The notes beneath the pieces are model-generated. The model searched no databases. It was not told where the DNA came from and saw only the letters and a program-made list of their open reading frames with translations. Shown here piece after piece: positions 11,485 through 32,282 of a DNA stretch of 48,166 nucleotides. The number at the start of each line of letters is the position of its first letter. The first letter of the stretch is position 1. Source of the DNA: an uncultured Balneola sp. (lineage in GTDB: Bacteria; Bacteroidota; Rhodothermia; Balneolales; Balneolaceae). The DNA lies in the NCBI GenBank assembly GCA_913058495.1, contig CAJXQC010000022.1:1-48166 (forward strand), in the 5' to 3' direction. Both the position numbers and the translations under genes were made by a program.

Positions 11485-11584
11485 TTATATTTTTTGTTAA
11501 ATTTTATTGAAGATAGTTAACACATTATTTCATTACCACATTAAGAATAATTTTTAAGTACATTCCGAAAATAATTTAGTTTAT
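11485..11584. promoter_or_regulatory. Divergent promoter region of the kinase and NagX-like genes
   Basis: These 100 bases separate the two start codons and must carry promoters for both directions. The sequence is very AT-rich and I cannot assign boxes or an operator. The shared spacer suggests co-regulation of uptake and phosphorylation. Confidence 0.4.
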
Positions 11585-12784: not shown

Positions 12785-15217
12785 CTACTTAATCAGAGTC
12801 ATTCTTCTTGTGATGGTTTTTCCTTTAGCACTCAGCTGATAAATATAAATTCCTGATGCCAGGTTAGAACCATTAAAAGGAATATTATGTGTCCCTGAGC
12901 TCATATTCTCATTCAGAAGAGTGGAAACCTCTCTGCCTAACATATCATATACTTTTAAAGTAGTAACTCCGCTTTGAGCCAGACGGAAACTAATGACAGT
13001 TGATGGGTTGAATGGATTCGGGTAATTTTGTTGTAATCTGGTTTCTGAAGGAACATCCGGGTTTTCTTCTATCGAAACGTTTATTTTTTTTGGGTAACTT
13101 AACCTCATATTATCAAAAAAAAGCGAACCGGAATACGTCTCTCCCGTTTGTTGCTCAGATTTTAATTTAATCCCAATACCTGTAATTCTAATGGGGTAAT
13201 AAAAGCTACTGAAGGGATCTGACGCCTGAATATTTTCCATGGAAAGATAATACTCTTCAAAATCTGTATTATCTGCATACCTTTTAAGTCTGATCGTAAA
13301 TTCTTCTCCATTGTTGTCAGTCACAATAGCATCGATCAAGTGTTCTTTTCCATCAGTTAGACCATCAATTAAAATAGTATCTGGAACTCCAAAAACCGGA
13401 ATATCTGTTCTTACATACGCCCATGTACTGGGAGTACCTGCATACGTAAATTGATAATCAATTTTTAAAGCTTTTTCTCCCTCTGTAAACATATTCTCAG
13501 AAGCACTGATCGATGAATTAGCAAGGTCAATATTTTCACCATCTAATGAAAAACCCTCCACACTTTCAAAATTCTCGATTTTCGTTATTCCACTTCCAAT
13601 TTGAACCTCAACTTGAGAAGTGTCTGAGACCCCATCAAAAGTTCCTATAATATTAGTAACTCCCTCCTCAAGCCCTTTAAAAACTCCGTTTTCTATAGTT
13701 CCTACGGCCTCGTTTTCAACTTCCCAACTTACATTCGCATTTGAAACCGATTGAGATATCCCATCACTGTCATACGATTCATTAAAAAAAACTATATCCT
13801 GATTATTATCCGTCACTGCTTGTTCCGGAAATAAATTAAAATTCGTTATTCCTTTGATCTCAACTAATGATGAATCTCTATAGCCGTTATATTCAACAAA
13901 AACATATCCTGTATCAGGGTTTGTACCAGCTTCAAATAAGCCTGTATTAGAAATTTCAGCATCAAAACCCTCGCTAAGGGAAAAAGTAATGTCTTGGCTG
14001 TTTAAATTTACGGGAAAGTAGTTCTCATCAGTTCCTTCTACTTTGTACGTGAAACTTTTATTCCTGTATATTTTTTTAATGGAAGGATCAATATTTAACC
14101 GATGAAGGGTTCCTGTTTTTTGTTTATTGGAAACTAACATCAAAGCATTCGCTACTGATCTCTCGCCTGCTCCATCAGACGGTGAATTGGCAACTTCATT
14201 ATGTACAACTAAAGTGGTTGATCCTCCTCCATCAAGATTCAATGCGTTGTGGGCACCTATCCCGAGCATAAAATCACCTAATTCGGTGAGTGTCATACCT
14301 ACACTGGACGATTGTCTTCCATCAACAGTAACAAAATAAAACTTAGTTGTATCAGCATTAAAACCTAGTGCTGATCGGGGATGTCTTTCCGGCCAATTTC
14401 CTTGATTTACTCCGTTGTTCAGGAATTTAGCACTTCCACCAACGGCTTCTTTTAAAGCATCAGTAGCGGGAGCAACTTTGTGATTGATTACCAATGTATC
14501 ACCTGAAGACACTGAATTTAAAATAATAGCCCCGGCTCCATGTCCTGAAAGTACAAAAGTGGAATCTGTAAGACTCGAATTTCCTTCATTTTCAGACTTA
14601 GAAACTACAACAGTTCTTATCTCCCCGTTAACAACCCAGGGATCAATGGCTTTTAAAGTTAACTCGGTTCCAAAATTATTTGTAGAAGTACCGGATCCAA
14701 AAAAATGATTGTAGAAAATTATTTGATTGCTATTTCTAACTCTATTTACATTGCTGATAGAATTAGTAGTTTCGCCAATTTTCAGAACTCCATCATAACT
14801 GGTAGTATTTATAAACATTTCCGAATTGCTGGAATATCCAAATACTTCTCTGTTGATAGGCTTAGTCAGTATTTCACCATTCAGAACCTGTAAATTTGTT
14901 GGAGTTCCTCCACTATAGAAATCTCCATTTATAGCAGCTATTACTTCATGACCGGGCATAGATTTTCGGGCAGACATAGAGCTTGTTTTCTCATATGCGG
15001 CCAATCTGTCTTGTGCTTTTACAGTTTCTAAACTATAAATACCGTTAGTCAGATCGATCTCAATTACTTCAAGAGTCCACGGAACTGATGAAGCTTTTAC
15101 AGAATAATGAAACGCTCCTTCTCCAATTTGTTTAACATTTACTGTATCGAATTTAACCTGCGAAAAAACTGATGCAGGAATCAATAGAAAAATTGATAAA
15201 CAGAGAAACTTATTCAT
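12785..15217 (-). CDS. T9SS-exported phosphodiester glycosidase (NAGPA domain)
   Basis: An 810-residue secreted enzyme. A signal peptide (FLCLSIFLLIPASVFSQ) is followed by a NAGPA/DUF2233 catalytic domain at ~50-350 with AINGDFYSGGTPTNLQV, RHPRSALGFN, FVTVDGRQ and the diagnostic NALNLDGGGSTTLV. Human NAGPA removes GlcNAc from a mannose-6-phosphate diester; bacterial members cleave sugar-1-phosphodiesters. Behind it are two Ig-like (Big-type) domains (~355-540), a jelly-roll carbohydrate-binding-like domain (~545-715) and a T9SS type A sorting domain (~730-810, LQQNYPNPFNPSTVISFRL). It is co-oriented with the GHL10 gene 55 bases upstream and probably co-transcribed; the two share nearly the same C-terminal domain. 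Confidence 0.92.
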   Translation of the reverse strand: MNKFLCLSIFLLIPASVFSQVKFDTVNVKQIGEGAFHYSVKASSVPWTLEVIEIDLTNGIYSLETVKAQDRLAAYEKTSSMSARKSMPGHEVIAAINGDFYSGGTPTNLQVLNGEILTKPINREVFGYSSNSEMFINTTSYDGVLKIGETTNSISNVNRVRNSNQIIFYNHFFGSGTSTNNFGTELTLKAIDPWVVNGEIRTVVVSKSENEGNSSLTDSTFVLSGHGAGAIILNSVSSGDTLVINHKVAPATDALKEAVGGSAKFLNNGVNQGNWPERHPRSALGFNADTTKFYFVTVDGRQSSSVGMTLTELGDFMLGIGAHNALNLDGGGSTTLVVHNEVANSPSDGAGERSVANALMLVSNKQKTGTLHRLNIDPSIKKIYRNKSFTYKVEGTDENYFPVNLNSQDITFSLSEGFDAEISNTGLFEAGTNPDTGYVFVEYNGYRDSSLVEIKGITNFNLFPEQAVTDNNQDIVFFNESYDSDGISQSVSNANVSWEVENEAVGTIENGVFKGLEEGVTNIIGTFDGVSDTSQVEVQIGSGITKIENFESVEGFSLDGENIDLANSSISASENMFTEGEKALKIDYQFTYAGTPSTWAYVRTDIPVFGVPDTILIDGLTDGKEHLIDAIVTDNNGEEFTIRLKRYADNTDFEEYYLSMENIQASDPFSSFYYPIRITGIGIKLKSEQQTGETYSGSLFFDNMRLSYPKKINVSIEENPDVPSETRLQQNYPNPFNPSTVISFRLAQSGVTTLKVYDMLGREVSTLLNENMSSGTHNIPFNGSNLASGIYIYQLSAKGKTITRRMTLIK

Positions 15218-15272: not shown

Positions 15273-17285
15273 CTATTTTATCAAAGTCATTCTACGGGTA
15301 ATTGTACTACCTTTTGAATTCAATTGATAAATATAGATACCGGATGAAAGATTAGAACCATTAAAAGAGACATTATGCGTTCCGGAAGTCATATTTTCAT
15401 TCAGCAAAGTTGAAACTTCTCTACCCAGCATATCATATACTTTTAGTGTTGTAAATCCACTTTCTCCTAATCTGAAACTAATCACGGTAGTTGGGTTAAA
15501 AGGATTCGGATAGTTTTGTGACAAATGAAACTGTTTAACCAATTCTGGTTCTTCTTCATTTGATACAACTATTCCTCCCTCTTCAGCAGGTGTAGGATCA
15601 CTTTCTATATTATTTCTACTTGCAGCTGTTACAAAATACCAATACCCGCTTTCTGAAGGTGGAGTAATATCTGTAAAACTGGTATCTCCGGTAACTTCTA
15701 TAAGGTTATAATATTTGGTCATCTCTTCAGATTCGTTTGGAGCTGTTCCGGAATCAACTCTGTAAACTGCATATTTAACCAATGAATCCGTATGACTACT
15801 TGTGACAGATTTACCGATCTGATCTATTGATGACGGACTCCAGGAAATATTAAAAATATACTCAGTCTCCGGATCTCTGGTTACAACCAGATTTTCAGGA
15901 GTGTCAGGTTTAGCCATACTCTTCCATTCCATCACAGGTTGAAGAGCATCATATTTATAAAAGTTATTTCTTAAAGTATCTGCAAAACCCTTTGATGAAA
16001 AACCTGTTAAGTTTTTTTCTCTGAAAAATACACTTCCTTGAATTTTTGGGTTTGCACGGTTGATCCTAACCTGTTTGGGAACCTCACTTGCGGTATAGCT
16101 AGCGTCTCCAGTGTTCGAGTCGCTTCTGTACAATGCATGTCCCGGATAAATATGTCTTTCATTTGCTGCTGCACTGTCTGCCCACCAGGTGGCCAGCGCT
16201 TTATAATCCTGCCCATATGGTCCGAATCTATTTATTCCCCAATACAATTGAGGAGTAATGTAATCAATAGTCCGTTCCTGAAGCCATTCGATTCCATCAC
16301 CGTAAATAACTTCGTAAGCATTCATACCACTTATTCCGTCAGGTGTACCACTTTTCCATATTCCAAACGGGCTGATACCAAATTTTACCCATGGTTTTAC
16401 AATATTCATACTGTCATGTAAAGCTTCTACAAAGATATCAATATTATTTCTTCTCCAATCGTCCTTATCTGTAAAACCCCTTGGATACATCTCAAAAGTT
16501 TTATCATCCAGTGTATCGTTTACAACCAGAGTCTCCCCATCTACAACATAGCTTGATGCCATGTGATTGGGAGGATAGGGATAGAAATAATCATCAAAAT
16601 GAATCCCATCTACATCGTATCTGTTCACCACGTCCATTACAACCTGTACATTGTAATCAATTACTTCAGGCAAACCAGGATTCATAATGGCAATCTTATT
16701 ATTCATCACAAACAGCCATTCAGGATGTGTATTTGCAACATGTTTTTCATCTCTTTGACTGGTGTCAAACTGTTTTCTTTTACCTTTTTCATATTCTTTT
16801 TGAAGAAATGGCTTTAAACTTTCATCTACATCTTCTTCTGTCGCTTTCCCAGGTAAAGCCTTTTGTGTGAAGTCACTTGGTATAGTTCTCATTGCTCTGT
16901 ATGGATTTAGCCATGCGTGCAATTCCATTCCTCGCTTATGAGCTTCTTCAATTGCAAATTCTAAAGGATCCCAGTAAGGGTCCGGAGCTCTTCCTTCCTC
17001 TCCTGTAAGATATTTTGACCATGGTTCGATAGGAGAATCATAAAGTGCATCTCCCTCTGTTCTGATCTGGAAAAAAACTATATTGATTCCCATTTTATCC
17101 AGCTTATTCAATTTGCTGATAAGATCATCTTGTTGAAATCTGACCGGTATTCCACCAGCCTGTGGCCAATCTAAATTTATAACTGTAGCCATCCACGTAC
17201 CTCTGAACTCATATTTAGGTACATTTTCTTGTGAGAATGTCATAGCCGGAGCTAAAATAAAAAAAAGGAAAAATAGCTTTTTCAT
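15273..17285 (-). CDS. T9SS-exported GHL10 family glycoside hydrolase (DUF187)
   Basis: A 670-residue secreted glycosidase. Signal peptide KKLFFLFFILAPAMTFSQ, then a GH10-like (GHL10/DUF187) TIM barrel at ~25-440 with EFRGTWMATVINLDWP, VFFQIRTEGDALY, LHAWLNPYRA and DGIHFDDYFYPYP. A fibronectin type III domain (~465-570) and a T9SS type A sorting domain (~590-670) follow. E. coli DigH, a GHL10 member, cleaves denuded peptidoglycan glycan strands, so peptidoglycan or a related amino-sugar polymer is a reasonable substrate; this is inference. A strong terminator just upstream belongs to the neighbouring unit, so this gene starts its own transcript, probably with the NAGPA gene. Confidence 0.92.
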   Translation of the reverse strand: MKKLFFLFFILAPAMTFSQENVPKYEFRGTWMATVINLDWPQAGGIPVRFQQDDLISKLNKLDKMGINIVFFQIRTEGDALYDSPIEPWSKYLTGEEGRAPDPYWDPLEFAIEEAHKRGMELHAWLNPYRAMRTIPSDFTQKALPGKATEEDVDESLKPFLQKEYEKGKRKQFDTSQRDEKHVANTHPEWLFVMNNKIAIMNPGLPEVIDYNVQVVMDVVNRYDVDGIHFDDYFYPYPPNHMASSYVVDGETLVVNDTLDDKTFEMYPRGFTDKDDWRRNNIDIFVEALHDSMNIVKPWVKFGISPFGIWKSGTPDGISGMNAYEVIYGDGIEWLQERTIDYITPQLYWGINRFGPYGQDYKALATWWADSAAANERHIYPGHALYRSDSNTGDASYTASEVPKQVRINRANPKIQGSVFFREKNLTGFSSKGFADTLRNNFYKYDALQPVMEWKSMAKPDTPENLVVTRDPETEYIFNISWSPSSIDQIGKSVTSSHTDSLVKYAVYRVDSGTAPNESEEMTKYYNLIEVTGDTSFTDITPPSESGYWYFVTAASRNNIESDPTPAEEGGIVVSNEEEPELVKQFHLSQNYPNPFNPTTVISFRLGESGFTTLKVYDMLGREVSTLLNENMTSGTHNVSFNGSNLSSGIYIYQLNSKGSTITRRMTLIK

Positions 17286-17314
17286 AAAACGTTTTGTGCT
17301 CTCTATTAGGGATA

Positions 17315-17342
17315 AAAAAAAGGCAGCACAAGGCTGCCTTTT
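17315..17342 (-). terminator. Intrinsic terminator of the TonB/PorV/T9SS unit
   Basis: A perfect 10-bp stem AAAAGGCAGC (17318-17327) pairs with GCTGCCTTTT (17333-17342) around the loop ACAAG. On the minus strand it is followed by an uninterrupted T8 run. It lies 15 bases after the stop of the T9SS propeller gene, the last gene of the minus-strand unit. Confidence 0.93.
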
Positions 17343-17357
17343 CTATTAAACAATTGC

Positions 17358-18755
17358 TTATTTAATTAAAGTCATACGATTGGTTAAACGTAAACCATTC
17401 GCTTGTAGTGTATAGATATATACGCCAGAAGCTAAATTCGTAGCATCGAAAGTTACAGAATGATCACCTGCATTTTCTCTGTTATTTACTAATGTAGCAA
17501 CTTCTCTACCTGTAATATCATACACTTTCAATGTCACAAGACCAGCCTGATCAATTGAGTAGTTGATATTAGTAGTTGGGTTAAACGGATTAGGATAATT
17601 CTGACCCAATTTAAATCCTTCAGGTATTGTATTCAGGTTGTCTTCATTTGAAGTGTACACCTGAGATGTAGTGAATTTTTGAACATCAAACTCCGTATCT
17701 CCACCACTGAAAACACCTACATACGCTACTGTTCCTTCAGCATCAAAATCGAGTGCTCTTGGACGGCCTGCATCGAATTCGTTTGTGAATTCAGGATTTC
17801 CACCACCGGCAACCCATCTTAAACTATCCAATGGTTCTTCACTGGCAGTACCCAAAGTAGCATAATCAAAAGCATACCAAGTTTGTGGAGTGTATGGTGC
17901 ATCAGGAACATCGTTTAATGAACCAGCACCTACCCATAGATGTTTTGTTCTTGGGTGAATATCAAAACTTTCTGCTCTGATTCCTCTTAACACAGTATCC
18001 GGAGTACCGAAACCACTGAATTCATCAGGCTTTTGATATCTCAATACGTAACCATTGGTATAACCTGCCCACCAAATAGTTTGGCCATCAGCTGAAACTT
18101 GTACATCTCTCGAGAAACTTTGAGTTGTAGTAATAACTACTTCCTCATTTTCAAGATTGCTGTCATACTTGTAAATAGGAGCGTCAGTTCCCACTACACA
18201 TCCAACATAAATATTTCCTTCAGCATCGGTACTTGCTTCACCTAATGAACATCCTGCTGTAGGATCTACCATGGCAAGTCCCTGACCTGTTTGATAATCG
18301 ACCTTATAAAGTCGGTTAAACTGAGAAATAACAATATGTCCATCCATAATGCTGGTTTCAATTCCTCTACCGGAATAACCTTCATACGCTTCACCTGTCC
18401 AAACTCTACCTAAAGTATCATTAGGAGTGGTTCCATCAGCATATTCGATTACTTTTAGAGGTGAGAAACTCGCTGGAGTTCCATTTGCGTTATAAACATA
18501 GATCGCTCTTGTAGTCAGAGTATCAGGATCTCCGTTATCTCCATCTCTATTGGTAATTATAGTTTCAGTAGCTGAAAACGGCTGAATCCATACCTTTCCA
18601 TCCGGATCTACAGCCACACCATGTACTTCAAAAAACAAATCACTGGTATTTGCAGTATCAGGTATAAATGTGTCATCGAATGTCCAATTTTGTGCATTTA
18701 CCAGCATAGGTGCCAGCAAAAAACACAATAGAATAAGTAGTTTGTTGTTTTTCAT
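17358..18755 (-). CDS. T9SS-exported beta-propeller protein
   Basis: A 465-residue secreted protein. Signal peptide LLILLCFLLAPMLVNAQ is followed by a repeated beta-propeller (~25-375; VHGVAVDPDGKVWIQP, STDAEGNIYVGCVVG, VSADGQTIWWAGY, DFDAEGTVAYVGVF) of NHL/SMP-30-like type, then a T9SS type A sorting domain (FKLGQNYPNPFNPTTNINYS to RLTNRMTLIK). No catalytic residues can be assigned; such propellers often bind or display ligands at the surface. It is the last gene of the unit starting with the TonB-dependent receptor, 80 bases behind the TIG lipoprotein, and ends at an intrinsic terminator. Confidence 0.85.
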   Translation of the reverse strand: MKNNKLLILLCFLLAPMLVNAQNWTFDDTFIPDTANTSDLFFEVHGVAVDPDGKVWIQPFSATETIITNRDGDNGDPDTLTTRAIYVYNANGTPASFSPLKVIEYADGTTPNDTLGRVWTGEAYEGYSGRGIETSIMDGHIVISQFNRLYKVDYQTGQGLAMVDPTAGCSLGEASTDAEGNIYVGCVVGTDAPIYKYDSNLENEEVVITTTQSFSRDVQVSADGQTIWWAGYTNGYVLRYQKPDEFSGFGTPDTVLRGIRAESFDIHPRTKHLWVGAGSLNDVPDAPYTPQTWYAFDYATLGTASEEPLDSLRWVAGGGNPEFTNEFDAGRPRALDFDAEGTVAYVGVFSGGDTEFDVQKFTTSQVYTSNEDNLNTIPEGFKLGQNYPNPFNPTTNINYSIDQAGLVTLKVYDITGREVATLVNNRENAGDHSVTFDATNLASGVYIYTLQANGLRLTNRMTLIK

Positions 18756-18835
18756 AGTTCTCCTTTTTGTATCCGTGTTTCTATAAGTTTTATTTATTTG
18801 TTAAGTGTTTAACAGTCTGTACTGTATAGTTTTTT

Positions 18836-20122
18836 CTAATTAAATCCAAAAATACCGGCTCTTGTCCGATCAAACATATCCATAAAATTGAGACTCGCTT
18901 CATCTCCTTCTATAGTTACAACAGCAAATTCATCATCCCTCCATGTAATACTGAAAGTGCCTTCTTTGATCATTCCGGGGTAAAAAGCCTGATGTCGGAG
19001 CGAAGGAAAGACTCTTACAATGCTTGTTTCTCCATCGTTTCCAATCAAAAGCTCACCGTTTGAAGCAAATATGAGAGAGGTTATTAAACCATCATAATTA
19101 GCTCCGAAATCGAAATAAAGTTCTCCCGCGCCTAAATTACCTCCGCCATTGATAGGAAATTTCCAAACCTGCTGACTTCCGTTGATATCACCACCAACAT
19201 ACAATTCATTATTATTTTTGAAATAAGCTACCGCGCTAAACTGGCCTGTAAATGGGAATGTTGTTTCAGCTTTAGTAGAAGCATTAAATCTGTGAATAAG
19301 ATCACTGTCAAAACCTACAGCCCATAAAAAACCATTATCATCAAAAATCATATCGTTGATTTTGAGATCTGCAGATGATGATGCAGACCAAACACTTTCC
19401 CTTTTATCATCTCCGAAAGTCTTAGTGAAAATAGCTCTGATACTCTGTTGTGATAAAAACAAATCATTATTTTGACCTATCTCTAGATCACTATATTCCG
19501 TAAATCTCATTGTACTATCTGTAGGATATGGTCTGGAATCATTTGGATCAGGTCTGGGTTCACCAGGATATTTTACAAGATCTCTTGTTATAGTTCCATC
19601 CGGTGCAATTTTAGTGTACCTGATAACTCCGTTCCGATCTATAATCGTATATACATTATTATCTCCATCAACCCCGACAGGTGTTGTTGGTACAAAACTT
19701 ACATCAGTACCAGGATAAAAGCCCTGAGGTTGTCTTAATGTGTAAGCATAACTTTCGCTTAAAAACTCTGCGTCTCTAACCCCAACTTGAACAGATAAAT
19801 CCGTTCCATGTATAGTACCGGGACGTACAATAAGTTCAGTTGGCGTTGCACTTAAAATAACGCCCGATGAACCACCAAAATTGATCACTACTTCTTCGGG
19901 GTCATCAGAAAAATTTTGACCTGTTACTATTACTGAATCAACTCCTGCAAGATAACTTGGGTCGGGGGATATATTTGTAACTACAGGTCTTTCTGCGGAC
20001 AACTCAAACTCCGGGTCAAAAATACTGTTTCCATCTCCACAATTTGAAAAAATCAGAGCAATACCTGAAAGAATAATAATTCTTGTGTTCAATTCTTTTA
20101 AAGTTTTAAAGTACGTTTTCAT
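18836..20122 (-). CDS. Surface lipoprotein with TIG domain and beta-propeller
   Basis: A 428-residue predicted lipoprotein: the hydrophobic signal IIILSGIALIFSNC places a lipobox Cys at about residue 28. An IPT/TIG Ig-like domain covers ~45-125 (RPVVTNISPDPSYLAG, VIVTGQNFSDDPEEVVINFG), and the rest looks like an NHL-type propeller (GVDGDNNVYTIID, MIFDDNGFLWAVGFDS, LYVGGDINGSQQVW). This layout recalls SusE/F-type or TIG lipoproteins that bind ligand beside a TonB-dependent receptor; the ligand is unknown. Its start codon directly abuts the stop of the PorV-like gene (no spacer), so it is cotranscribed and probably coupled. It has no T9SS sorting domain, consistent with lipid anchoring. Confidence 0.82.
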   Translation of the reverse strand: MKTYFKTLKELNTRIIILSGIALIFSNCGDGNSIFDPEFELSAERPVVTNISPDPSYLAGVDSVIVTGQNFSDDPEEVVINFGGSSGVILSATPTELIVRPGTIHGTDLSVQVGVRDAEFLSESYAYTLRQPQGFYPGTDVSFVPTTPVGVDGDNNVYTIIDRNGVIRYTKIAPDGTITRDLVKYPGEPRPDPNDSRPYPTDSTMRFTEYSDLEIGQNNDLFLSQQSIRAIFTKTFGDDKRESVWSASSSADLKINDMIFDDNGFLWAVGFDSDLIHRFNASTKAETTFPFTGQFSAVAYFKNNNELYVGGDINGSQQVWKFPINGGGNLGAGELYFDFGANYDGLITSLIFASNGELLIGNDGETSIVRVFPSLRHQAFYPGMIKEGTFSITWRDDEFAVVTIEGDEASLNFMDMFDRTRAGIFGFN

Positions 20123-21130
20123 TTAAAATCCAATTTGTGCACTAAATCTGTTAACCTCTCCGAATACTCCGAATTGAGTATAAGAATAGTCGATGCTTAG
20201 ATTTACTTTTTTCAAAGGCTGTATTACACCAAACCCAAATGACAATTTCTCTTCATCTTTAGGAAAGCCATAGCCCCCTCTGAGTATGAACCTGTTCATA
20301 AAAGTATATTCAGTACCTATAAAGATTTGTTCATCATAATCTCGTGGTCTGTTGGTATCGATTGCAACCAAAAGAGAATGTGTTTCAGGATCTATATCGG
20401 CTAAATCCAGAACATTCATTGAAATCCCTATCTTGAATGTAAGCGGTAATTCCTGTTCTTCTTCTGCAAAAGATACTTCCTGTGAAAAATTTCTAAGGGC
20501 AAAAGCAAAATTAAGGCTCTTGAAACCGGTCTTATAAAAAGCTCCAAAATCAAGAACTCCAACTCCTGCAGAATATGATTCCGTTATATAACCTCCGTTA
20601 CCATCAGTATTTACAGGCGCAGAAGTCAAATCTTCATACGCATATTTGAAATTCGCACCTACAGAAAACTTATCCGTAATTGCGTTAGCATAAGAAAGGC
20701 CGATAGTAATGGCTGTAGGATTTACAAGTCCGTTATCGAGATAACCAAGAGGATTGTTAGGATCATTGTCACGTACAGTTGCTATAATATCTCCGTAATC
20801 TACAGATGTTGCATTTAATCCGAACACTCCAATATTTGAATTTCCCGGTTTGTAAATAATAGATGCAGAGTTATGACTAATGTCTGCAATCCACTGTACG
20901 ACACCGGCGGTAACACTAACTTTGTCTTCAACTAAAGCTAAAGTAGCCGGATTGTAAAAAGGACTGTAAGCTCCCATATTTACCGAAGTTACAGCATCTG
21001 ACATTGCCGAAGCTCTTGCTGACGGTGAAACTGATAAAAATTTCATACTCGTCTGAGCCCTTTTGTCCTGAGCATTGAGCAAAGGAGAAGCGAAAAGTAT
21101 TAAAAAAAGTATTGTAGCTATTTTCTTCAT
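20123..21130 (-). CDS. PorV/PorQ family outer-membrane protein
   Basis: A 335-residue FadL-like barrel with signal peptide ATILFLILFASPLLNAQ and the PorV/PorQ hallmark SMKFLSVSPSARASAMSDA followed by YSPFYNPATLAL. It ends with beta strands and a C-terminal Phe (NRFSAQIGF). PorV carries T9SS cargo from the translocon to the attachment complex; PorV-like paralogues are common in Balneolota and may serve particular cargo. Here it sits between a TonB-dependent receptor/surface protein pair and two surface propeller proteins, one of them T9SS cargo, which suggests a dedicated export partner. It lies 14 bases behind the 727-residue gene in the same unit. Confidence 0.9.
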   Translation of the reverse strand: MKKIATILFLILFASPLLNAQDKRAQTSMKFLSVSPSARASAMSDAVTSVNMGAYSPFYNPATLALVEDKVSVTAGVVQWIADISHNSASIIYKPGNSNIGVFGLNATSVDYGDIIATVRDNDPNNPLGYLDNGLVNPTAITIGLSYANAITDKFSVGANFKYAYEDLTSAPVNTDGNGGYITESYSAGVGVLDFGAFYKTGFKSLNFAFALRNFSQEVSFAEEEQELPLTFKIGISMNVLDLADIDPETHSLLVAIDTNRPRDYDEQIFIGTEYTFMNRFILRGGYGFPKDEEKLSFGFGVIQPLKKVNLSIDYSYTQFGVFGEVNRFSAQIGF

Positions 21131-21144
21131 ATTTATAGGAGCCC

Positions 21145-23328
21145 TTAAAGTATAATTACTATTTTACGAATGGCTACTTGTCCAAATTCATCGTCGTTGG
21201 GATCAGTGTTAATGATCCGGGCGATGTAAATACCGCTGGCAACTCTTTGTCTAGAGTCGGTTCTCAGATCCCATGATTCATCTCCACTTCCTCCGGTATG
21301 GTCAATGGAACGAACTCTTTCTCCCAGCTCTGTATATATTTCAATGGTACATTCACCCGGAATTTCATAAAACTGAATACGATCACTTCCATCAGAGTCT
21401 GTAGTGAATAATAAACTGTTATCAGCACTTGCTGAATAAGGATTAGGAACCACACGGATATCACTCATTGATTCCCCTGCTGCTCTTAGTAAGGTGGCAG
21501 GATCATACGATTGTGTATAGTATCTGCTACTTCTTAATTTGGTACCTGTTGGAGTATTACCTGTATTGTCATTATTTGCTGATCCTACACTAACTATATA
21601 ATAATAGTAGTTAAGCCCTCTTATTGGTACATCAAGTTGGAAAGCTCCCGGATTTTCGCTTCTACCTGTTTCGCCATCCAGAACCGATGTCTCTGCCGGG
21701 CTTGCTTCGTATAGTAAACGATATGTACTGTCCACTCTTCCCTGTGCACGGTAAATTTCAAATCCTTCGATGTTTCCTACATCACCTTGATATTCCCAGT
21801 CCAGCTGTATTCCCCCTCCTTTTGATTCCACAAAAAACAGAGCAGGTGGTTCCGGAGCTTGTGGGATAGAATAATCTGAATCGAAATTTCCTACAGCTCT
21901 TTCGAAAGTTTGGAATAGTGAATCTCTTCCTGTAAAAACCCACTCATTCTTGGTCATGCTTAAAGACTGACCATTAGTTTCATATGTAATATCAGAATAT
22001 TGATCTCCACCTGACTCGACTATTTCTTTAAATTGACGTCCTACTCCCTCAGCTATTTCTCTTGTAATTCCGGCAGAAGCTTCAGCAATTACTATTCTTA
22101 CACTTTCACCTGGTGCCAGAGTGTAAGGCCCATAGCCATAGGTATATGCAAATCCACCTAAATTATTACCTTGTTTTGGGTCACCCGTTGGCTGTATAAA
22201 TCCATCATAACCACTGGGTTCAACCTTATAAGCATGGCGTTCACTATCTCTTCCTCTTGTCATCATTGCATACTCAGCAACCATTTTAGTTTCATTGAAC
22301 GCATCATTTTGACTGTAAAGCGGATCATCATTATGCTCTTCCCTCATAGTGAATGGCTGTGCGGGGTCATCAGAATTATCATTTGCAGATGCATCAGCAT
22401 GGAGCGTAACGGTTCCAACAAAGTGGTAAGCCTCTAATCGTCCGGTCGTATCTGCTTCTGTTAAATATCCACCTGATGTATTTGGCACATAGATCGGAGC
22501 GCCAATATTATCATAATTTGCATCCATAAAACCAGGGAAGCGTCCGTGCCATGCAAACTGAGCCCTGAAATCTTCCGGCTCTGCAGGTCTGAGACCGTCT
22601 CCACGACGATCATTCATAGTATTTTGACCCCACCCGGTTGCGTTTCCAATGGTGTGGCGGGAAGCTTTAACAGGGGCCATTCTGTTTAAGAAATAAGGAA
22701 CGAAACCCTCAACTGTTTGATTTGGCAATTCAATATCATCGTCAGCATCTGTATTACCTGTGTTTGTAAAGATATATTCTATCACATGGTAATTATCATG
22801 ATACTCTTGGCTGAATTGCATAGCAGTTCTTTGCACTGTTATTCCCAACAAACTATTTACAGTAGTCACAATTTTACGATCCGCTACCATAGCAGGATCC
22901 ACTTCATCATTGCTGACATCTTTGGCAAAAGACTGTAATCCGTCTACTATCACCTCAGGCGGTGTAAATTTACTTATAGTTTTCATTTCAATTGGGGTAA
23001 ACTCACCAAGCCCTTGCACTCTGGGGCCCACGTGTACCACTCTTTTAGAAAAGGTTGTTCCGTTTTCATCGGTAAAGTTTTCCGCTCCTAACCATAATGC
23101 TTTCATAGCTTGAGCATCCTGACCTAAATATATAGCTGGCCACTGCCAACCACCCTGCTGTTCTTTTATAAATCCTTCTTCAATTTCTGAACCTACACTG
23201 GCATAGAAATTATGAAATGAACCTACCGACAACCATCTGTTCTCAACCTGAGCAAATAAGAACCCGGTACAGGATATTAATACCACTAGAAAAGAAGTCG
23301 TTTTTTTCAATGTTTTCCTAACTGTCAT
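21145..23328 (-). CDS. Secreted surface protein with FN3-like and C-terminal sorting-like domain
   Basis: A 727-residue secreted protein with signal peptide TTSFLVVLISCTGFLFAQ. The first ~510 residues are a large beta-rich region without a family I can name, typical of proteins encoded beside TonB-dependent receptors in Balneolota. A fibronectin type III-like domain lies at ~520-620. The last ~100 residues form a FlgD-Ig/T9SS-like domain (IRVVPNPYSASADN, ECTIEIYTELGERVRSIDH, GIYIARI, VAIRKIVIIL), a divergent sorting domain compared with the QNYPNPFNP types nearby. It lies 17 bases behind the receptor gene and 14 before the PorV gene. I infer it is a surface partner of the receptor. Confidence 0.8.
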   Translation of the reverse strand: MTVRKTLKKTTSFLVVLISCTGFLFAQVENRWLSVGSFHNFYASVGSEIEEGFIKEQQGGWQWPAIYLGQDAQAMKALWLGAENFTDENGTTFSKRVVHVGPRVQGLGEFTPIEMKTISKFTPPEVIVDGLQSFAKDVSNDEVDPAMVADRKIVTTVNSLLGITVQRTAMQFSQEYHDNYHVIEYIFTNTGNTDADDDIELPNQTVEGFVPYFLNRMAPVKASRHTIGNATGWGQNTMNDRRGDGLRPAEPEDFRAQFAWHGRFPGFMDANYDNIGAPIYVPNTSGGYLTEADTTGRLEAYHFVGTVTLHADASANDNSDDPAQPFTMREEHNDDPLYSQNDAFNETKMVAEYAMMTRGRDSERHAYKVEPSGYDGFIQPTGDPKQGNNLGGFAYTYGYGPYTLAPGESVRIVIAEASAGITREIAEGVGRQFKEIVESGGDQYSDITYETNGQSLSMTKNEWVFTGRDSLFQTFERAVGNFDSDYSIPQAPEPPALFFVESKGGGIQLDWEYQGDVGNIEGFEIYRAQGRVDSTYRLLYEASPAETSVLDGETGRSENPGAFQLDVPIRGLNYYYYIVSVGSANNDNTGNTPTGTKLRSSRYYTQSYDPATLLRAAGESMSDIRVVPNPYSASADNSLLFTTDSDGSDRIQFYEIPGECTIEIYTELGERVRSIDHTGGSGDESWDLRTDSRQRVASGIYIARIINTDPNDDEFGQVAIRKIVIIL

Positions 23329-23345
23329 TTAAGCTTAATTCTAAA

Positions 23346-26300
23346 TTAAAATGAAAACCTTACACCAAAGCGAATGGTACGAGGATCCAAAAAGTTAAAA
23401 AATCGTTGGTTTGGCATATTAATGTAAGCCTTTTCGTCTAATACCTGATCTACATAATTGCCATCTGCATCTACAAATGCATTTCCATCCCACTGATAGT
23501 ACTTATTCTCAAGAGAATTGTAATATAATGCTCTGGAATTACCTGAATTCGGAAGCGTTGTATACACTTCGATCGGCACATACTCTATATCACTAGGGCG
23601 ATAATCTCCGGGTTGATCACTTCCCGAAACACGTTGATTTTCCAAACCTATTTCCTCCCAAGTATCAGAAGAAAGATGCAGAGAATTCATGTAATCAAAG
23701 TAGTCATTACCGTCAATTAATCCTGAGTTGAAAATGCTGAAATTTCTTCGGTTAATGACATTACTGACATCAGCAAAGAACCCAATTCGTCCACCACTTT
23801 CAAGATTTACTTCTTTAGCGAATCTTAGACTAGTTCCCCAGAAATCCCTGTTTTGAACATTGTAAAGCACACCGGGAATTGACCCACCACCGGTATAAGT
23901 AAAGTAACTTCCTGATTGCCATGTAACTAAAGGAACTATTTGCCAATCACCAAAAGGATGAGCGCCCATCAATTCAGGACCAAAATCGTTTGGAGTAGTA
24001 AACTGAAGTCTTAATCTTGCAAAAGGTTGAGGAACCGGCTTAAAGACATCATTATCATCCGTCAAACGATCGTAATTACGTTGGTCAAAGGGATTTTCAT
24101 AATTTTCTAAAGTTCCAAACAAACCTGCTGAATAAATACTGTAGGTGTAATTAATTTCTCCTTGAAAGTACTGTCCCCTTTCCTTTCTAAAAGTAAGTTC
24201 CAAACCTCGAACGTCGCCATAAGATAATGGCTGACTTACAGAGTAACTGTTATTATCTCTACTAATATAATCTACCTGAATTGGTTGATCTGACAGATCT
24301 TTATAATAACCACTTACTCTTACAAGGTAATCCTCAAATATATTATGCTCATAACCCACTTCGTAAGCTACTGTTTTGGGTAACTTATTCCTTGGGGAAG
24401 CTACTCTTGTAACAGTATTGGTGAACGGTTCTGTTCTTACTAGATATAAGTTTTCAGGATTCGGTAACTGTACATAATGATCGTAGTTAAAGAATAATTT
24501 ACTTACTTCCGTTATTGGAAAAGAAACTCCCAATCTAGGCTGAAGTACGATCTGAGGATCAACATCAGATACCTTAGCAGTATCTAAAGCAGATGCATTA
24601 CCACTGTCAAATAAATCAGTAAAATTATCGTATTCATACCAAGCAATATTTGGATCAGAGTAAGTTAGTCTCAACCCTGCCCTCGCAATCATTCCTTCAA
24701 ATTCGAGCTTATTTTCTGCAAACAAACCAATTCTGAGTGGCGTAGTATTCCAGGTTGAAAAAGTTCTTCCTGACGGTAGTACTTTATCAAATGAACCATA
24801 ATTAGCCTGACTGTTCTGTCTGATAACTTCAAAACCCGTTTTTAACTGGTTAATTCTGTTAAGCTGGCTTGTCATTTTAAATTTCAAACTCATGTAACCA
24901 AACCTACTGGTATCCCGAGCTGTACTCATCCCAACTCCCATCCTCATTCCGGAAGCCAGACCACTGGAAGTTTCATCAAAGAAACCAAAAGGACCTTCAT
25001 CAAAACCTACACCACCAATCGAGTATACATTTGTAGTGTCCCTGAAATCACCCGGGCTGGTATTGTTTTCTTGATTAGCGGCATAAAATTGAACTTCATA
25101 AAAAGTTTTAGAAGTAAGCTGATGAGAAAATTCTACTCCTAAACGTCTGTTAATTTGTTCAGAAGGAGCCCAATAATCTGATGCGTAAATTCTTGATTCG
25201 ATGAAGCTTACTCTTTCCATATCAGTAGTAATGTCCTGATTTGAATCAAAGAAGTCATTATTCCCGGTTTGACTCTCTGTTGTACCAGTTAATCGGTTAT
25301 AATAACCATCAATAGATAATTTCATACCAGAAGCAATATTACTCGTCACTTTAGCTTGTAAAGTTGTTTGAATTTGTCTGTCTTCTGATAAAGGAACCAG
25401 ATATACATCCTGAGTTCGGCGAAATGAAGTAGAGAACCTTAAATCACCAAAACGCTCACTTATAATTGGAACAGGTCCACCAAATGTAAAATCCAGATCA
25501 TAATCAGGATCGGTAATGCCCATATCTTTTCTGTGTTGATATAGGAAAACCTGCTGAGCTGCACTAGGAGAAAGGTCATTAGTGGGATCGCCATCATTCA
25601 TTAACTGCTGAGAAAAAGCGTTCCAACCTTGAAAACTTGGGTATTCCCTTTGTGTGTATGAATCCCACGCTCCGTTGGATGTTCCTGTCCAAGCAACTTC
25701 ATCATCCATATAAGGTCTCAGCCAGTATGAGTTTGGATCGTTAATTGCCTGTCCAACGTTTTTTTGTTGAGGATGAGTAACCCTGATCAATCCATCGAGA
25801 GTATAGCGGTCTCTTTCCCCTTCTTTAGTTGTAATTGAAATAAGTCCGGATCTCAAATCACCGTATTCAGCGGAAACTCCACCTAGCTGCACATTAATTC
25901 TCTCTATGGAAGTTAAACTCACACCGGTTACAGGACCATTATTCCGGGCAGAACCTAAAGATCCACCACCAAGGTTAAAACCTACCTCGTCAGTTCCACT
26001 ACCTCTTACACTTAATCCTTGCACACCTGCCTGTAACCCAACAGCTTCGGTAACACTTGTAATTGGAAGCGCCTCAAGAGTTCCTTTATTGATATTAGCC
26101 TGACTACCGGCGACATCTCTTTGAACTACTGGTCGCTCTGCTATCACAACAATTTCTTCTCCTTCAAAAGTCTCTTCCCTCATTGTGATGTTGATCTCTG
26201 TAGTCTGATCCAGATTTACTTCCACATTTTCGATGATTAAAGGAGAGAAACCAATAAAGCTTGCTTTAAGAGTGTATGTACCGGGCTCTACGTTCAAAAG

Positions 26301-26483
26301 CTGGTAGAAACCATCGGCTTCAGCAGCAGTCCCCTTTTGGGTAGCCTCTATGACTACAGTAGCTCCTGGCAAAGGCTCTCCTGAAGAATCTTTTACGAAG
26401 CCATTGATCTTTCCTGACTGAGCAAAAATGCTTGAAGAAAATGTTAGTAAGATGAAAAGAAATAGTAGCTGTTTTAAACCCAT
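23346..26483 (-). CDS. TonB-dependent receptor with carboxypeptidase-regulatory-like domain
   Basis: A 1045-residue outer-membrane transporter. Signal peptide LLFLFILLTFSSSIFAQ; CarboxypepD_reg-like Ig domain at ~25-110 (INGFVKDSSGEPLPGATVV, VEPGTYTLKASFIGF); plug domain at ~115-225 (LSVRGSGTDEVGFNLGG, VQLGGVSAEYGDLRSG); then a 22-strand-type barrel ending in RTIRFGVRFSF with terminal Phe. It uses TonB/ExbBD energy to import a ligand across the outer membrane. There is no SusD-like gene next to it, unlike Bacteroidetes Sus loci; the surface protein and TIG lipoprotein downstream may take that role. It is the first gene of a five-gene unit and has a long 5' region. Confidence 0.93.
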   Translation of the reverse strand: MGLKQLLFLFILLTFSSSIFAQSGKINGFVKDSSGEPLPGATVVIEATQKGTAAEADGFYQLLNVEPGTYTLKASFIGFSPLIIENVEVNLDQTTEINITMREETFEGEEIVVIAERPVVQRDVAGSQANINKGTLEALPITSVTEAVGLQAGVQGLSVRGSGTDEVGFNLGGGSLGSARNNGPVTGVSLTSIERINVQLGGVSAEYGDLRSGLISITTKEGERDRYTLDGLIRVTHPQQKNVGQAINDPNSYWLRPYMDDEVAWTGTSNGAWDSYTQREYPSFQGWNAFSQQLMNDGDPTNDLSPSAAQQVFLYQHRKDMGITDPDYDLDFTFGGPVPIISERFGDLRFSTSFRRTQDVYLVPLSEDRQIQTTLQAKVTSNIASGMKLSIDGYYNRLTGTTESQTGNNDFFDSNQDITTDMERVSFIESRIYASDYWAPSEQINRRLGVEFSHQLTSKTFYEVQFYAANQENNTSPGDFRDTTNVYSIGGVGFDEGPFGFFDETSSGLASGMRMGVGMSTARDTSRFGYMSLKFKMTSQLNRINQLKTGFEVIRQNSQANYGSFDKVLPSGRTFSTWNTTPLRIGLFAENKLEFEGMIARAGLRLTYSDPNIAWYEYDNFTDLFDSGNASALDTAKVSDVDPQIVLQPRLGVSFPITEVSKLFFNYDHYVQLPNPENLYLVRTEPFTNTVTRVASPRNKLPKTVAYEVGYEHNIFEDYLVRVSGYYKDLSDQPIQVDYISRDNNSYSVSQPLSYGDVRGLELTFRKERGQYFQGEINYTYSIYSAGLFGTLENYENPFDQRNYDRLTDDNDVFKPVPQPFARLRLQFTTPNDFGPELMGAHPFGDWQIVPLVTWQSGSYFTYTGGGSIPGVLYNVQNRDFWGTSLRFAKEVNLESGGRIGFFADVSNVINRRNFSIFNSGLIDGNDYFDYMNSLHLSSDTWEEIGLENQRVSGSDQPGDYRPSDIEYVPIEVYTTLPNSGNSRALYYNSLENKYYQWDGNAFVDADGNYVDQVLDEKAYINMPNQRFFNFLDPRTIRFGVRFSF

Positions 26484-27613: not shown

Positions 27614-30445
27614 TTAACCGCCGAACCAATAACTAAATTTAATTAAAAATACATTAGCTGGCTCCGGATCAAATAAGCTTCTGAAATCATTAACAAAATT
27701 GAACTCTCCATTTGGGCTAAATCCGTTTCTTTGTTGTTGCCATACCAGAAAGAAAGTAGAACCGGGACTATATTCCCATCTGAATACAGCATTACCTTGC
27801 AAGGCTCTCCTGTTAAAATTTAATCTCCAGCTTTCAATAGTGAATGGATCCTGACCTTGTGCAGGTTCACTAAGATCGCTGTCAGGATCCACAGTTACTG
27901 ATCCATCAGAATTCCTAACAAAAGATCCTTTATCAGTACCATATTCATCAAAGCCAAAGCCGCCTGGGTTATTGAATTCTTTGAAATTTGAAAACTTTCC
28001 TGTTCCTATAAATGGACGAACGTAAGTCTGAAGACTCATTTTTGTGTTAAATGTCCAGTTCAATCTGATTTCTGTTGAAAATTCAGTTTGTTTGATATCA
28101 GAGAACACATATCTCCTCCCAAATGTATTATTGCCATCAATCGCTGATTCAGCATAATTTTGATTAGTAATAAATTGATCCACATCATTTTGGAAACCAA
28201 ACTCAGGTTCAACGGATATCTGAATATAAGTTGTAGGTCTGAAGGACAAATATGCCCAGAAAAAATGGTCATACTCTCCTACTCTGTCCTCTCTGTGAAA
28301 TTGACCTGTTCCTCCGGATATTGTTTTTGAACTGTTTGAATTAATATTGAAATTAAAGTTCCAACTTCCGGGCATTAGAAAAGTAGGTCCACCTCTGGTT
28401 ATTCTGTCTGAAATAGTATCAAAATTTGCGTTAGCGTTGATATTAAAAGACCACAGGTTTTTGAATTGAAAATAACCACCGGCATTATAGCCTCTCGAAA
28501 TCAGATCATTATCGAAATTCCAGGCATGAGTTGTATAACTCCATAAATTAATGAACTGGAAAAAGTCCGGATCATTCTCCTGATATTGAACGCCTGTTGT
28601 TACTGCTCTATAATCTGCTCTGTTTTGAAAACCAATATCATTAGTTTCATATCCTGGTGTAACCATAGACCCGGTAACTGACCATGTCCAGTGTTCCCCG
28701 CTCGCTTTTTGCAAACTCAACTCTGAAGCTAATCCACTCAAACTTGTTTTACTGTTATCCACTGATAGCCCATCTGAATCTACTCGTTGATAGTATCTCT
28801 GAGGCGCATTTTGTGTTCTTGTAATCGCATCAGAAGTACCGAATACAGAACTCAATGAAGCTGTTCCGCTTACAATCCAGGTACGTTCATCCCATCCATG
28901 CTCAAAATCTACTCCCGTAATAAAAGCTGAATTGTGGAGTCTGTTCTCAAAATAAGTTCCCCCTATGTCTCGGTTCATTCCACTAAAAAAACCACCAACT
29001 ACTGTATTTCCTTCATTAAAATCTTGTTTAAGTCGAGAAACCAAAAAATTATTGGACGGCTGAACAACAAAATTTCCTGTTGTATCATAAGATGTATTAT
29101 TCAAGGTATCTATTACAGTCAAACTAAAAGGAGAACTTTCTTCTAATGTCCTGCTATACAGCATTCCTATAGAAGTTCCTTGTTGAGTTTTTCCACTCAA
29201 TTTTGCAGCTCCTAAAATTCTAGACTGTCTGGGAGCATCTGTATATGTTATTGGCACTAAGTTATCGTTATTTGAGTCGTAATACCTACCACCACTAACA
29301 GAAGAATTAAAATCTCCAAAACCACCTTGGGGAGCCCTGCCTATTCTTCTTGAATAAAAAGTATTTGGGTTTCCGAAGTTGTTAAATGTCTTTGTACCCC
29401 CAAATCTGAATATCTCATTTCCTTCTAAGAAAAATGGTCTTCTTTCTGAGAAGAACTGCTCGAATTGAGAAAGGTTTATGGTTGCGGGGTCTACTTCAAC
29501 CTGACCAAAGTCGGGGTTTATAGTAGCTGTCAATGTCAGATCAGAAGTAACACCGTATTTAATATCTCCACCGATATTGGCATCCAACTCGTTTTCATTA
29601 TAGTATGGGTTGTTTGGATTACCGGGCGCTCTTTCTAAAACTGATGATACATAAGGAGTAATTTCCAATCTTCTGGGCTCTTCCAGATCTCTGATACCAT
29701 TTAATCGCCCGAATAAAGAAACACTTCCTGAAGCTGACTGAGAAGTTGGTGCCCAAAAGTTATATTCCTGATGTCTGGCTATTCTTCTTTGAAAGTTAAC
29801 TCCCCAGGACTTTATATCGTCTTTGGAGCTAAATCGTAATTGAGACATTGGAATTCTCATCTCTACTGACCAGCCGCCTTCAACCATTTTTGCTTCGGCT
29901 TCCCAAACTGCATCCCATAATACATCTTCACCTCTGTCATCAAAATAAAGAATATCTTTTTGAACACCTCTCGGGTTCACTGCAAAAGTAAACGCAGTAC
30001 GCTTATCATTATAACTGTCTAAACTCACATACACCCAGTCACTTGTTTCGCTGCCATCTCTTCTGAACAAAGAAGCTATAACAGAATCAGGAGCATTGTC
30101 ATAGGCCATTATGCCTACATATACTTCAGTGTCAGTATATAAGATCCTTGCTTCTGTTTTTTGAGACGGATTACCTCCGTCACGCGGAGATCGCTGCGTA
30201 AAACCTGTGGCTACAGGAGCCGTAGACCAAATTGCCTCATTAAGCACCCCATCTAATTGTATATTTTGTCCAGATATTCTCACCGCTTCCATTGTAGGAT
30301 TTTGGGCGTATCCAAAACGATAATCGATATTATCTTTTTTAAAACTAAAACCTCTTAGTTCTTCTCTTTCTTCAGGTACAGTTTCCTGTGCTTGCACACC
30401 AAAATTCAGGCATAGCAATAGTATGGTAATGGTAAATTTCCGCAT
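27614..30445 (-). CDS. DUF5916 outer-membrane protein with CBM9-like domain
   Basis: A 943-residue secreted protein. A signal peptide (ITILLLCLNFGVQAQ) precedes a CBM9-like domain at ~50-225 (IQLDGVLNEAIWSTAPVATG, YVGIMAYDN, FTFAVNPRGVQKD). The remaining ~700 residues are the DUF5916 part, with FFSERRPFFLEGNEIFRFGG and many amphipathic strands up to a C-terminal NVFLIKFSYWFGG, resembling an outer-membrane barrel. The family is widespread in Bacteroidota and Balneolota and of unknown function; the CBM9-like fold suggests glycan or metal contact. The gene is single, 72 bases upstream of the Bax-inhibitor gene. Confidence 0.88.
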   Translation of the reverse strand: MRKFTITILLLCLNFGVQAQETVPEEREELRGFSFKKDNIDYRFGYAQNPTMEAVRISGQNIQLDGVLNEAIWSTAPVATGFTQRSPRDGGNPSQKTEARILYTDTEVYVGIMAYDNAPDSVIASLFRRDGSETSDWVYVSLDSYNDKRTAFTFAVNPRGVQKDILYFDDRGEDVLWDAVWEAEAKMVEGGWSVEMRIPMSQLRFSSKDDIKSWGVNFQRRIARHQEYNFWAPTSQSASGSVSLFGRLNGIRDLEEPRRLEITPYVSSVLERAPGNPNNPYYNENELDANIGGDIKYGVTSDLTLTATINPDFGQVEVDPATINLSQFEQFFSERRPFFLEGNEIFRFGGTKTFNNFGNPNTFYSRRIGRAPQGGFGDFNSSVSGGRYYDSNNDNLVPITYTDAPRQSRILGAAKLSGKTQQGTSIGMLYSRTLEESSPFSLTVIDTLNNTSYDTTGNFVVQPSNNFLVSRLKQDFNEGNTVVGGFFSGMNRDIGGTYFENRLHNSAFITGVDFEHGWDERTWIVSGTASLSSVFGTSDAITRTQNAPQRYYQRVDSDGLSVDNSKTSLSGLASELSLQKASGEHWTWSVTGSMVTPGYETNDIGFQNRADYRAVTTGVQYQENDPDFFQFINLWSYTTHAWNFDNDLISRGYNAGGYFQFKNLWSFNINANANFDTISDRITRGGPTFLMPGSWNFNFNINSNSSKTISGGTGQFHREDRVGEYDHFFWAYLSFRPTTYIQISVEPEFGFQNDVDQFITNQNYAESAIDGNNTFGRRYVFSDIKQTEFSTEIRLNWTFNTKMSLQTYVRPFIGTGKFSNFKEFNNPGGFGFDEYGTDKGSFVRNSDGSVTVDPDSDLSEPAQGQDPFTIESWRLNFNRRALQGNAVFRWEYSPGSTFFLVWQQQRNGFSPNGEFNFVNDFRSLFDPEPANVFLIKFSYWFGG

Positions 30446-30566: not shown

Positions 30567-31370
30567 CTAATTTTTACGAATTGAAATATCTCCGTGGAGC
30601 GTTTTGAATAGATATTCCGGACCTCCTCCGTTTACAGTACCGTATACCCATTTATTAATAGATACTTTGTATTGGCCTTTTTTAGACGAGACTTGAGTAT
30701 CCGTAGGGTTCCGCTCGATGTCCATATCAAAATTGGTGTAAACATCTCCCCAGTCTGTTTTCATTTTCGCTGAAAACTTAGCGTTTTCAGGTAATGATAT
30801 CTCTATATCACCATTTACACCTGTAAACGACATTGGAGCATTGGGATCGATCTTTACAAAACTTACTTCGATATCTCCGTTCACACTGTTTACTAATGCC
30901 GAGCCGGATATATCCATCACTTCCACATCACCATTTACAGATTCGATCTCCACTTGCCCTTCCAGACCTCTTACTTCCACGTCGCCGTGTACAGCATTAA
31001 GTTTTAACGAAAAATTTTTGGGAACGTAGACGGTCAGTTCAAGATCATTGTGCTGAGGCTGACTGTTTATTCTAACTACGTTATTATCCTCAGTGATCTC
31101 CAGGCTTAACCCACCTGATGATATTCTCCTTAAACCATTTTTACGATTGTTCCAGTTATCGTCGTCATCTTCACCGTTATATTTTACTATAACATCCTGA
31201 CGATCATGCGTTTGTACAATTATATCGTCAGCATAAACCAGATCGATTCGCAGCATGCCCTTTTGTCCGGGTTTGGATAAAGGGACAGTTATATCATCCT
31301 GAGCCGCCAAAGGATTTGATACAACCAACACAAGCAATGCACTAAATAGGGTAATTATTATTTTTTTCAT
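30567..31370 (-). CDS. DUF4097 family beta-strand repeat protein (second copy)
   Basis: A 267-residue secreted protein (signal ITLFSALLVLVVSNPLAAQ). From ~100 to 200 it has repeated strands of the type VHGDVEVRGL, VNGDVEVMDI, VNGDIEVSFV, VNGDIEISLP spaced ~17-20 residues, the adhesin-like right-handed beta-solenoid of DUF4097. It shares the N-terminal theme and repeat with the upstream gene, so the pair is a tandem duplication. It is the last gene of an operon headed by an ECF sigma factor. Such proteins are found with envelope-stress systems (LiaG-type), but no biochemical role is known. It lies 20 bases behind its paralogue. Confidence 0.85.
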   Translation of the reverse strand: MKKIIITLFSALLVLVVSNPLAAQDDITVPLSKPGQKGMLRIDLVYADDIIVQTHDRQDVIVKYNGEDDDDNWNNRKNGLRRISSGGLSLEITEDNNVVRINSQPQHNDLELTVYVPKNFSLKLNAVHGDVEVRGLEGQVEIESVNGDVEVMDISGSALVNSVNGDIEVSFVKIDPNAPMSFTGVNGDIEISLPENAKFSAKMKTDWGDVYTNFDMDIERNPTDTQVSSKKGQYKVSINKWVYGTVNGGGPEYLFKTLHGDISIRKN

Positions 31371-31390
31371 GATTCTCTTATTTCTTGATT

Positions 31391-32269: not shown

Positions 32270-32282
32270 GATTTGTCCTCCC

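Follow-up and report, generated by a model that had tools for sequence, protein, structure and literature searches.

A PorV-family gene that lies inside an apparent nutrient-uptake operon of an uncultured Balneola sp. raises the question of whether a carrier of the type IX secretion system (T9SS) can be dedicated to one surface protein of a TonB-dependent transporter. The original prediction for this locus was a five-gene unit without SusD, in which the PorV copy and its presumed cargo are dedicated to each other. The window analysed here, a stretch of 48,166 nucleotides, is contig C22 of a 3.40 Mb genome that is 99% complete. ORF analysis of the window confirmed the predicted layout: five minus-strand ORFs at 17358-26483, separated by gaps of 17, 14, 0 and 80 bases (Table 1). 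The single strong terminator expected after the fifth gene is also present, with a z-score of -5.3 and no equally good structure in 200 shuffles, although a consensus-based scan did not pick it up. The 727-residue product of the second gene is referred to below as S727.

Table 1 Features of the five-gene unit and its neighbours, with positions in the window
Feature	Position	Strand	Basis or remark
TonB-dependent receptor, 1045 aa	23346..26483	minus	Carboxypeptidase-regulatory-like N domain (CarboxypepD_reg), weak Plug match, barrel
S727, 727 aa, proposed to be exported to the surface by the T9SS	21145..23328	minus	Predicted structure, pLDDT 89.6, pTM 0.85
S727 residues 26-490, beta-supersandwich	21859..23253	minus	Fold match to GH94/GH116/GH15-type N-domain
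S727 residues about 491-600, fibronectin type III (Fn3)	21529..21858	minus	3mpc Fn3, E 5e-6
S727 residues 625-727, distinct T9SS-type sorting domain	21148..21456	minus	Tail profile, model
PorV/PorQ-family outer-membrane barrel paralogue, 335 aa, proposed carrier/anchor of S727	20123..21130	minus	NF033709, PDB 6h3i
TIG + NHL-type propeller lipoprotein, 428 aa	18836..20122	minus	TIG family, lipobox Cys28, fold
Propeller protein, 465 aa, ordinary type A T9SS tail at residues 386-458	17358..18755	minus	Por_Secre_tail/TIGR04183
Intrinsic terminator closing the five-gene unit	17308..17345	minus	12-bp stem, -16.1 kcal/mol
GHL10 glycosyl-hydrolase-like T9SS protein, past the terminator, conserved as a sixth partner	15273..17285	minus	39/51 units
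NAGPA (phosphodiester glycosidase) T9SS protein	12785..15217	minus	Linked in a minority, 7/51 units

A Pfam scan of the five proteins gave no match to the SusD family, in line with the prediction; SusD homologues are present on other contigs of the genome. The receptor scored 77.5 bits against the SusC model TIGR04056, for which the cut-off is 368. On both counts a SusC/SusD system was rejected as the class of the unit.

The dedication of a carrier to its cargo presupposes that the PorV copy is not the only one in the genome. The genome holds nine PorV/PorQ-family genes in total, and the canonical members lie on other contigs: PorU (1009 bits, cut-off 420) and canonical PorV (273 bits, cut-off 250) are neighbours on contig C14, PorQ (278 bits, cut-off 220) is on C8, and a PorV2-like gene is on C1. 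The unit PorV matched the PorV/PorQ family model NF033709 over its full length with 191.9 bits, passing the subfamily cut-off of 90, and also matched the PorV structure 6h3i (E 5e-8). It stayed under the cut-offs of the more specific models, namely the PorV equivalog NF033710 (82.3 bits, cut-off 250), PorQ NF033711 (80.9 bits, cut-off 220) and PorV2 NF052325 (38.2 bits, cut-off 325). In a PorV tree, 31 unit PorVs form one group with an SH-aLRT support of 90, and the other paralogues are long branches whose relative order is left aside. By its model scores, the unit PorV is a paralogue, with the canonical PorU-PorV pair and PorQ encoded elsewhere.

The C-terminal tail of S727 comprises about 100 conserved residues, for which the structure model shows a small beta-sandwich with roughly seven strands, and has the pattern PNPY..IEIYTELGE..IDH..GSGD..W..T.SRQ..ASGIYIARI..RKIVIIL. 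It had no match to the type A sorting-domain models TIGR04183 and PF18962, and the sole NCBIfam match of S727 is a weak one to the tail of PorZ. The tail nevertheless retains landmarks of type A, namely PNP, GIY and a basic residue ahead of a hydrophobic C-terminus, and is best classed as a divergent type A-like CTD. The original description of S727 as a sorting-domain protein needs correcting in this respect: its tail falls outside the standard models. When the whole genome was searched with a profile of this special tail, convincing scores were obtained for only three proteins, the training of the profile on S727 tails biasing which other tails are found: S727 itself and one protein each on C29 (1272 aa) and C5 (707 aa). 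The genes of the latter two each lie in a cluster that also encodes a PorV paralogue and a TonB receptor (L023, G000:C29:8500-27500, and L021, G000:C5:41000-60000); the C5 cluster additionally encodes an NHL-type lipoprotein. The same genome encodes 56 ordinary type A tails, and the tail of the propeller protein in the unit passes the type A model with 43.8 bits (cut-off 23).

Special tails and PorV-family genes were then counted in 15 genomes, the present one included. A PorV-family gene is found downstream on the same strand for 62 of 66 special tails, at a distance of no more than 600 bp for 50 tails and at a near-constant 7-8 kb for 11; at least one of the four remaining tails is at a contig edge. 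These tails occur on proteins of varied size, most having about 680-1,400 residues, and since matches to the S727 body are far fewer than special tails in the same genomes, most of them must have other bodies. Only 62 of the 146 PorV-family genes are paired with a special tail, and therefore not every paralogue serves one. Genomes G066, G309 and G236 have between 9 and 11 special tails each, together with 15-17 PorV-family genes, and by these gene counts putative carrier-cargo pairs are amplified in some lineages.

For S727 itself, PorV linkage was seen for 149 copies with the special tail and is missing at four further loci, of which three are at contig edges and one, L088, is on a cut contig. 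At 148 of the 153 special-tail S727 loci, the linked genes include one for a TonB receptor, usually directly upstream. In four S727 copies, namely those of L086, L095 and L191 and the second one of L102, an otherwise normal body ends in an ordinary type A tail, and none of the four is adjoined by a PorV or receptor gene of its own. In a tree of the bodies, the tail has switched three times independently, each time with PorV linkage absent, although significance cannot be reached with three switches (sign test, p 0.25). Two of these orphan genes (L095:7585-9657 and L102:12783-14894, Balneolaceae) adjoin a recA-like gene. The orphan of L102 is about 5 kb away from the full unit, an arrangement that suggests duplication followed by a tail swap.

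Across 47 linked pairs, tail distances and PorV distances correlated with r 0.70; when partners were shuffled within genomes, the mean r was 0.05 and the maximum 0.40, and none of 5000 shuffles reached the observed value. Co-inheritance of linked genes could explain this correlation with no need for contact between the proteins. In the unit, a barrel of a carrier family is encoded beside its presumed cargo, whose tail belongs to a type that is specific for PorV-linked proteins. The predicted dedication of PorV and cargo to each other gains support at the sequence level from a distinct tail that travels with PorV-family genes, and further from the ordinary type A tail that takes its place where PorV linkage is absent.

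S727 gave no Pfam match, and a PDB sequence search returned essentially Fn3 domains only. Structure comparison of the predicted model aligned the body with 9ju0 (Z 18.3, rmsd 3.5 Å over 262 residues), and its fold relatives are the supersandwich N-domains of GH94, GH116 and GH15-type enzymes and of dextran dextrinase. The catalytic (alpha/alpha)6 domain is absent from the model, which contains only the supersandwich, Fn3 and tail, and S727 was for this reason not interpreted as an enzyme.

The two propeller assignments of the original prediction were upheld at the profile level, and that of the lipoprotein also by fold. The lipobox cysteine, Cys28, is invariant in all 35 aligned members of the lipoprotein family. 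The closest solved folds are 3hrp, 3tc9 and 4hw6, all Bacteroides TIG-NHL proteins, of which two bear the title 'auxiliary nutrient binding protein', and the unit lipoprotein has the features of this auxiliary class: a lipobox cysteine, a TIG domain and an NHL-type propeller. This modelled likeness supports the proposed role of the TIG lipoprotein in ligand capture.

Of the 394 genomes sampled from the phylum, 79 encode relatives of the S727 body; these relatives are spread over 49 of 170 genera, and their distribution is patchy even within the genus. They include Balneola, Rhodothermales, Ignavibacteriales, Melioribacteraceae (among them the isolate Stygiobacter electus), Caldithrix and KSB1. 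For the gene-neighbourhood survey, neighbour genes at S727 loci were picked with HMM guidance and not as the longest ORF; the resulting counts of gene order are lower bounds, as antisense ORFs mask some genes in GC-rich loci. The exact order receptor-S727-PorV-TIG-propeller is present at 71 of 159 distinct S727 loci, with median gaps of 12, 9, 13 and 61 bases. All five genes are present within five genes at no fewer than 59 of the 89 adequately flanked loci, and nearly all of the remainder keep at least the receptor and PorV. A side branch has the alternative order PorV-receptor-S727. The gene order is conserved well beyond the genus, in Balneolota, Rhodothermota, Ignavibacteriota, Calditrichota and KSB1. 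With this conservation and the canonical PorV elsewhere in the genome, the original prediction passed both of the checks that could have refuted it. Some Ignavibacteria units (L070, L080, L180, L182, L183, L193-L195 and L269) encode one more protein between S727 and PorV, which is lipoprotein-like and about 200-340 aa long; the one tested had no Pfam match. In the GC-rich loci L061 and L079, long antisense ORFs mask PorV, which tblastn places next to S727, and longest-ORF pickers would overlook PorV in such genomes.

Beyond the terminator, neighbour genes were counted with domain-only profiles free of T9SS tails. A GHL10 gene is on the same strand as the unit in 39 of the 51 five-gene units with full flanks, Pfam confirming it in distant ones, and 12 of the 51 have no GHL10 nearby. 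In 11 genomes, 17 of 30 GHL10 genes lie within 10 kb of a special-tail/PorV pair, where about 1 was expected. Further along the window (10645-12745), a BadF-type ATPase/kinase, possibly an amino-sugar kinase, adjoins an HGSNAT-like membrane acetyltransferase near GHL10 and NAGPA. The original prediction took the adjoining amino-sugar locus as a clue to the substrate; this clue is partly supported by the GHL10 linkage, but NAGPA, the BadF-type kinase and the HGSNAT-like protein are not widely conserved with the unit. GHL10 proteins are not known to be confined to one substrate, and E. coli DigH (YddW) is a member of the family. DigH degrades denuded peptidoglycan strands (PMC12288456). Because of the GHL10 linkage, the DigH precedent and the amino-sugar-type neighbours in the window, an amino-sugar glycan is a plausible substrate; that it is peptidoglycan in particular is doubtful. 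On the other side of the unit, the window encodes a protein of 943 residues (27614-30445) that combines DUF5916 with a CBM9-like domain at its N-terminus; only close relatives share its position beside the unit. It is followed at 30567-33077 by consecutive secreted proteins rich in repeated 'NGDIEV'-type motifs, like putative adhesin families.

Gene content and order, the tie between tail and PorV, PorV paralogy, lipoprotein status and GHL10 linkage can be read from the sequence, and the folds of S727 and of the lipoprotein from the predicted models. Most likely, the unit encodes a TonB-dependent uptake machine that lacks SusD and has S727 as its surface subunit, which would be delivered by type IX secretion and not by the lipoprotein route. 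In the mechanism that we propose, a signal peptide would take S727 over the inner membrane to the T9SS translocon, where the distinct CTD would be gripped by the linked PorV paralogue instead of the general PorV. The paralogue would then retain S727 beside the receptor as a stable outer-membrane anchor, with neither cleavage nor attachment to lipopolysaccharide. These steps, which describe a dedicated S727-PorV pair in an uptake unit, we hold to be reasonably probable. Capture of a glycan may fall jointly to S727 and the TIG-NHL lipoprotein. This ligand would probably be a polymer of amino sugars, for instance denuded peptidoglycan strands that the GHL10 protein encoded nearby has cut, and the receptor would import the fragments. 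The type A-tailed propeller protein would travel on the general PorV and form a separate accessory, either secreted or attached to the surface. As a whole, the best explanation of the locus, held with moderate confidence, is a T9SS-exported glycan-capture protein kept by a PorV paralogue on a SusD-less TonB receptor.

S727 might instead travel on the general PorV like any type A cargo, its paralogue acting as a FadL-like channel or receptor accessory that passes the nutrient or its products. The PorV family is related to FadL, although the match of the unit PorV to the FadL/TodX family PF03349 is weak (17 bits, under the cut-off), and the type A landmarks in the S727 tail would suit the general carrier. 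PorV linkage is tracked by tail type and not by the S727 body, however, since the orphan bodies are type A-tailed, and a PorV paralogue also follows immediately after the genes of other special-tail proteins, of about 1,000-1,300 aa. Such tail-PorV pairing is not expected from a transport role, which weakens this alternative, and we consider it unlikely.

A little less likely still is a paralogue that serves as a dedicated export carrier only, S727 then being released or moved and forming no subunit of the receptor. PorV has been described as a recycled shuttle (PMC12618676, PMC10994853), but the receptor gene accompanies special-tail S727 at nearly every locus, and a one-to-one carrier suggests a lasting complex, as has been argued for type B pairs. 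That the linkage reflects an inherited neighbourhood with no joint function is very improbable: co-inheritance alone can yield the distance correlation, yet the order is tight and nearly gapless across several phyla, presence is patchy within genera, and separate clusters with the same tail-PorV pairing occur in one genome. The reading of S727 as a T9SS-exported subunit held on the receptor by its own PorV paralogue is preferred to all three.

A literature search that reached a minority of subscription journals found no paper on PorV-family genes next to TonB receptors. Type A CTDs are all said to use one PorV, private carriers being ascribed to type B CTDs alone (PMC12618676), and PorV holds the CTD by loops that extend into the translocon (PMC10994853). 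We tentatively suggest, with slightly less than even confidence, that the pairs represent a third class of T9SS cargo in many genomes of Balneolota, Rhodothermota and Ignavibacteriota: up to about 10 private PorV-family carriers per genome, each with its own type A-like tail, would make permanent subunits of TonB transporters and, in this unit, replace SusD. If true, a PorV-family carrier with its own tail, present several times per genome, would widen the rule of one PorV for type A, account for many unassigned 'PorV/PorQ family' genes of these phyla and join protein export to nutrient import in one operon. It would also give, for the TonB receptors of bacteria that have received little study, a concrete alternative to SusD that can be put to the test.

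Several known systems resemble parts of the unit. S727 residues 26-490 share the fold of the supersandwich N-domains of GH94, GH116 and GH15-type enzymes (Z about 18), but with about 10% identity and with an Fn3 domain and T9SS-type tail in place of the (alpha/alpha)6 barrel. Like SusC/SusD systems, the unit has a receptor with an N-terminal extension and a TIG-NHL lipoprotein similar to Bacteroides auxiliary proteins; it differs in a receptor far under the SusC model cut-off and in having no SusD, S727 with its supersandwich body and T9SS-type tail being in the neighbouring place. As is proposed for S727, the PorU-PorV/PorZ-PorQ attachment complex keeps CTD proteins uncleaved at the surface with PorV/PorQ-family barrels, and the one NCBIfam match of S727 is to the PorZ tail. 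S727, in contrast, is not a sortase or lipopolysaccharide-delivery protein and is encoded in an uptake operon, and the canonical PorU, PorV and PorQ are separate genes.

For type B CTDs, cognate PorP/SprF carriers are encoded alongside the cargo and also hold the CTDs at the surface (PMC12618676, PMC9143113). By analogy, the pairs SprB-SprF and PG1035-PorP resemble the unit in placing a surface protein with a distinct tail beside a FadL-family barrel that may act as carrier and anchor, and in both cases several such pairs occur per genome. In the unit, however, the barrel is of the PorV/PorQ family and the tail is type A-like, and whereas type B cargo is a known or predicted adhesin, S727 comes with a TonB receptor instead. 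The evidence from the tails and their linked carriers suggests that, in the phyla that carry the unit, the private-carrier arrangement has evolved within the PorV family too, where it would build surface subunits for TonB receptors.
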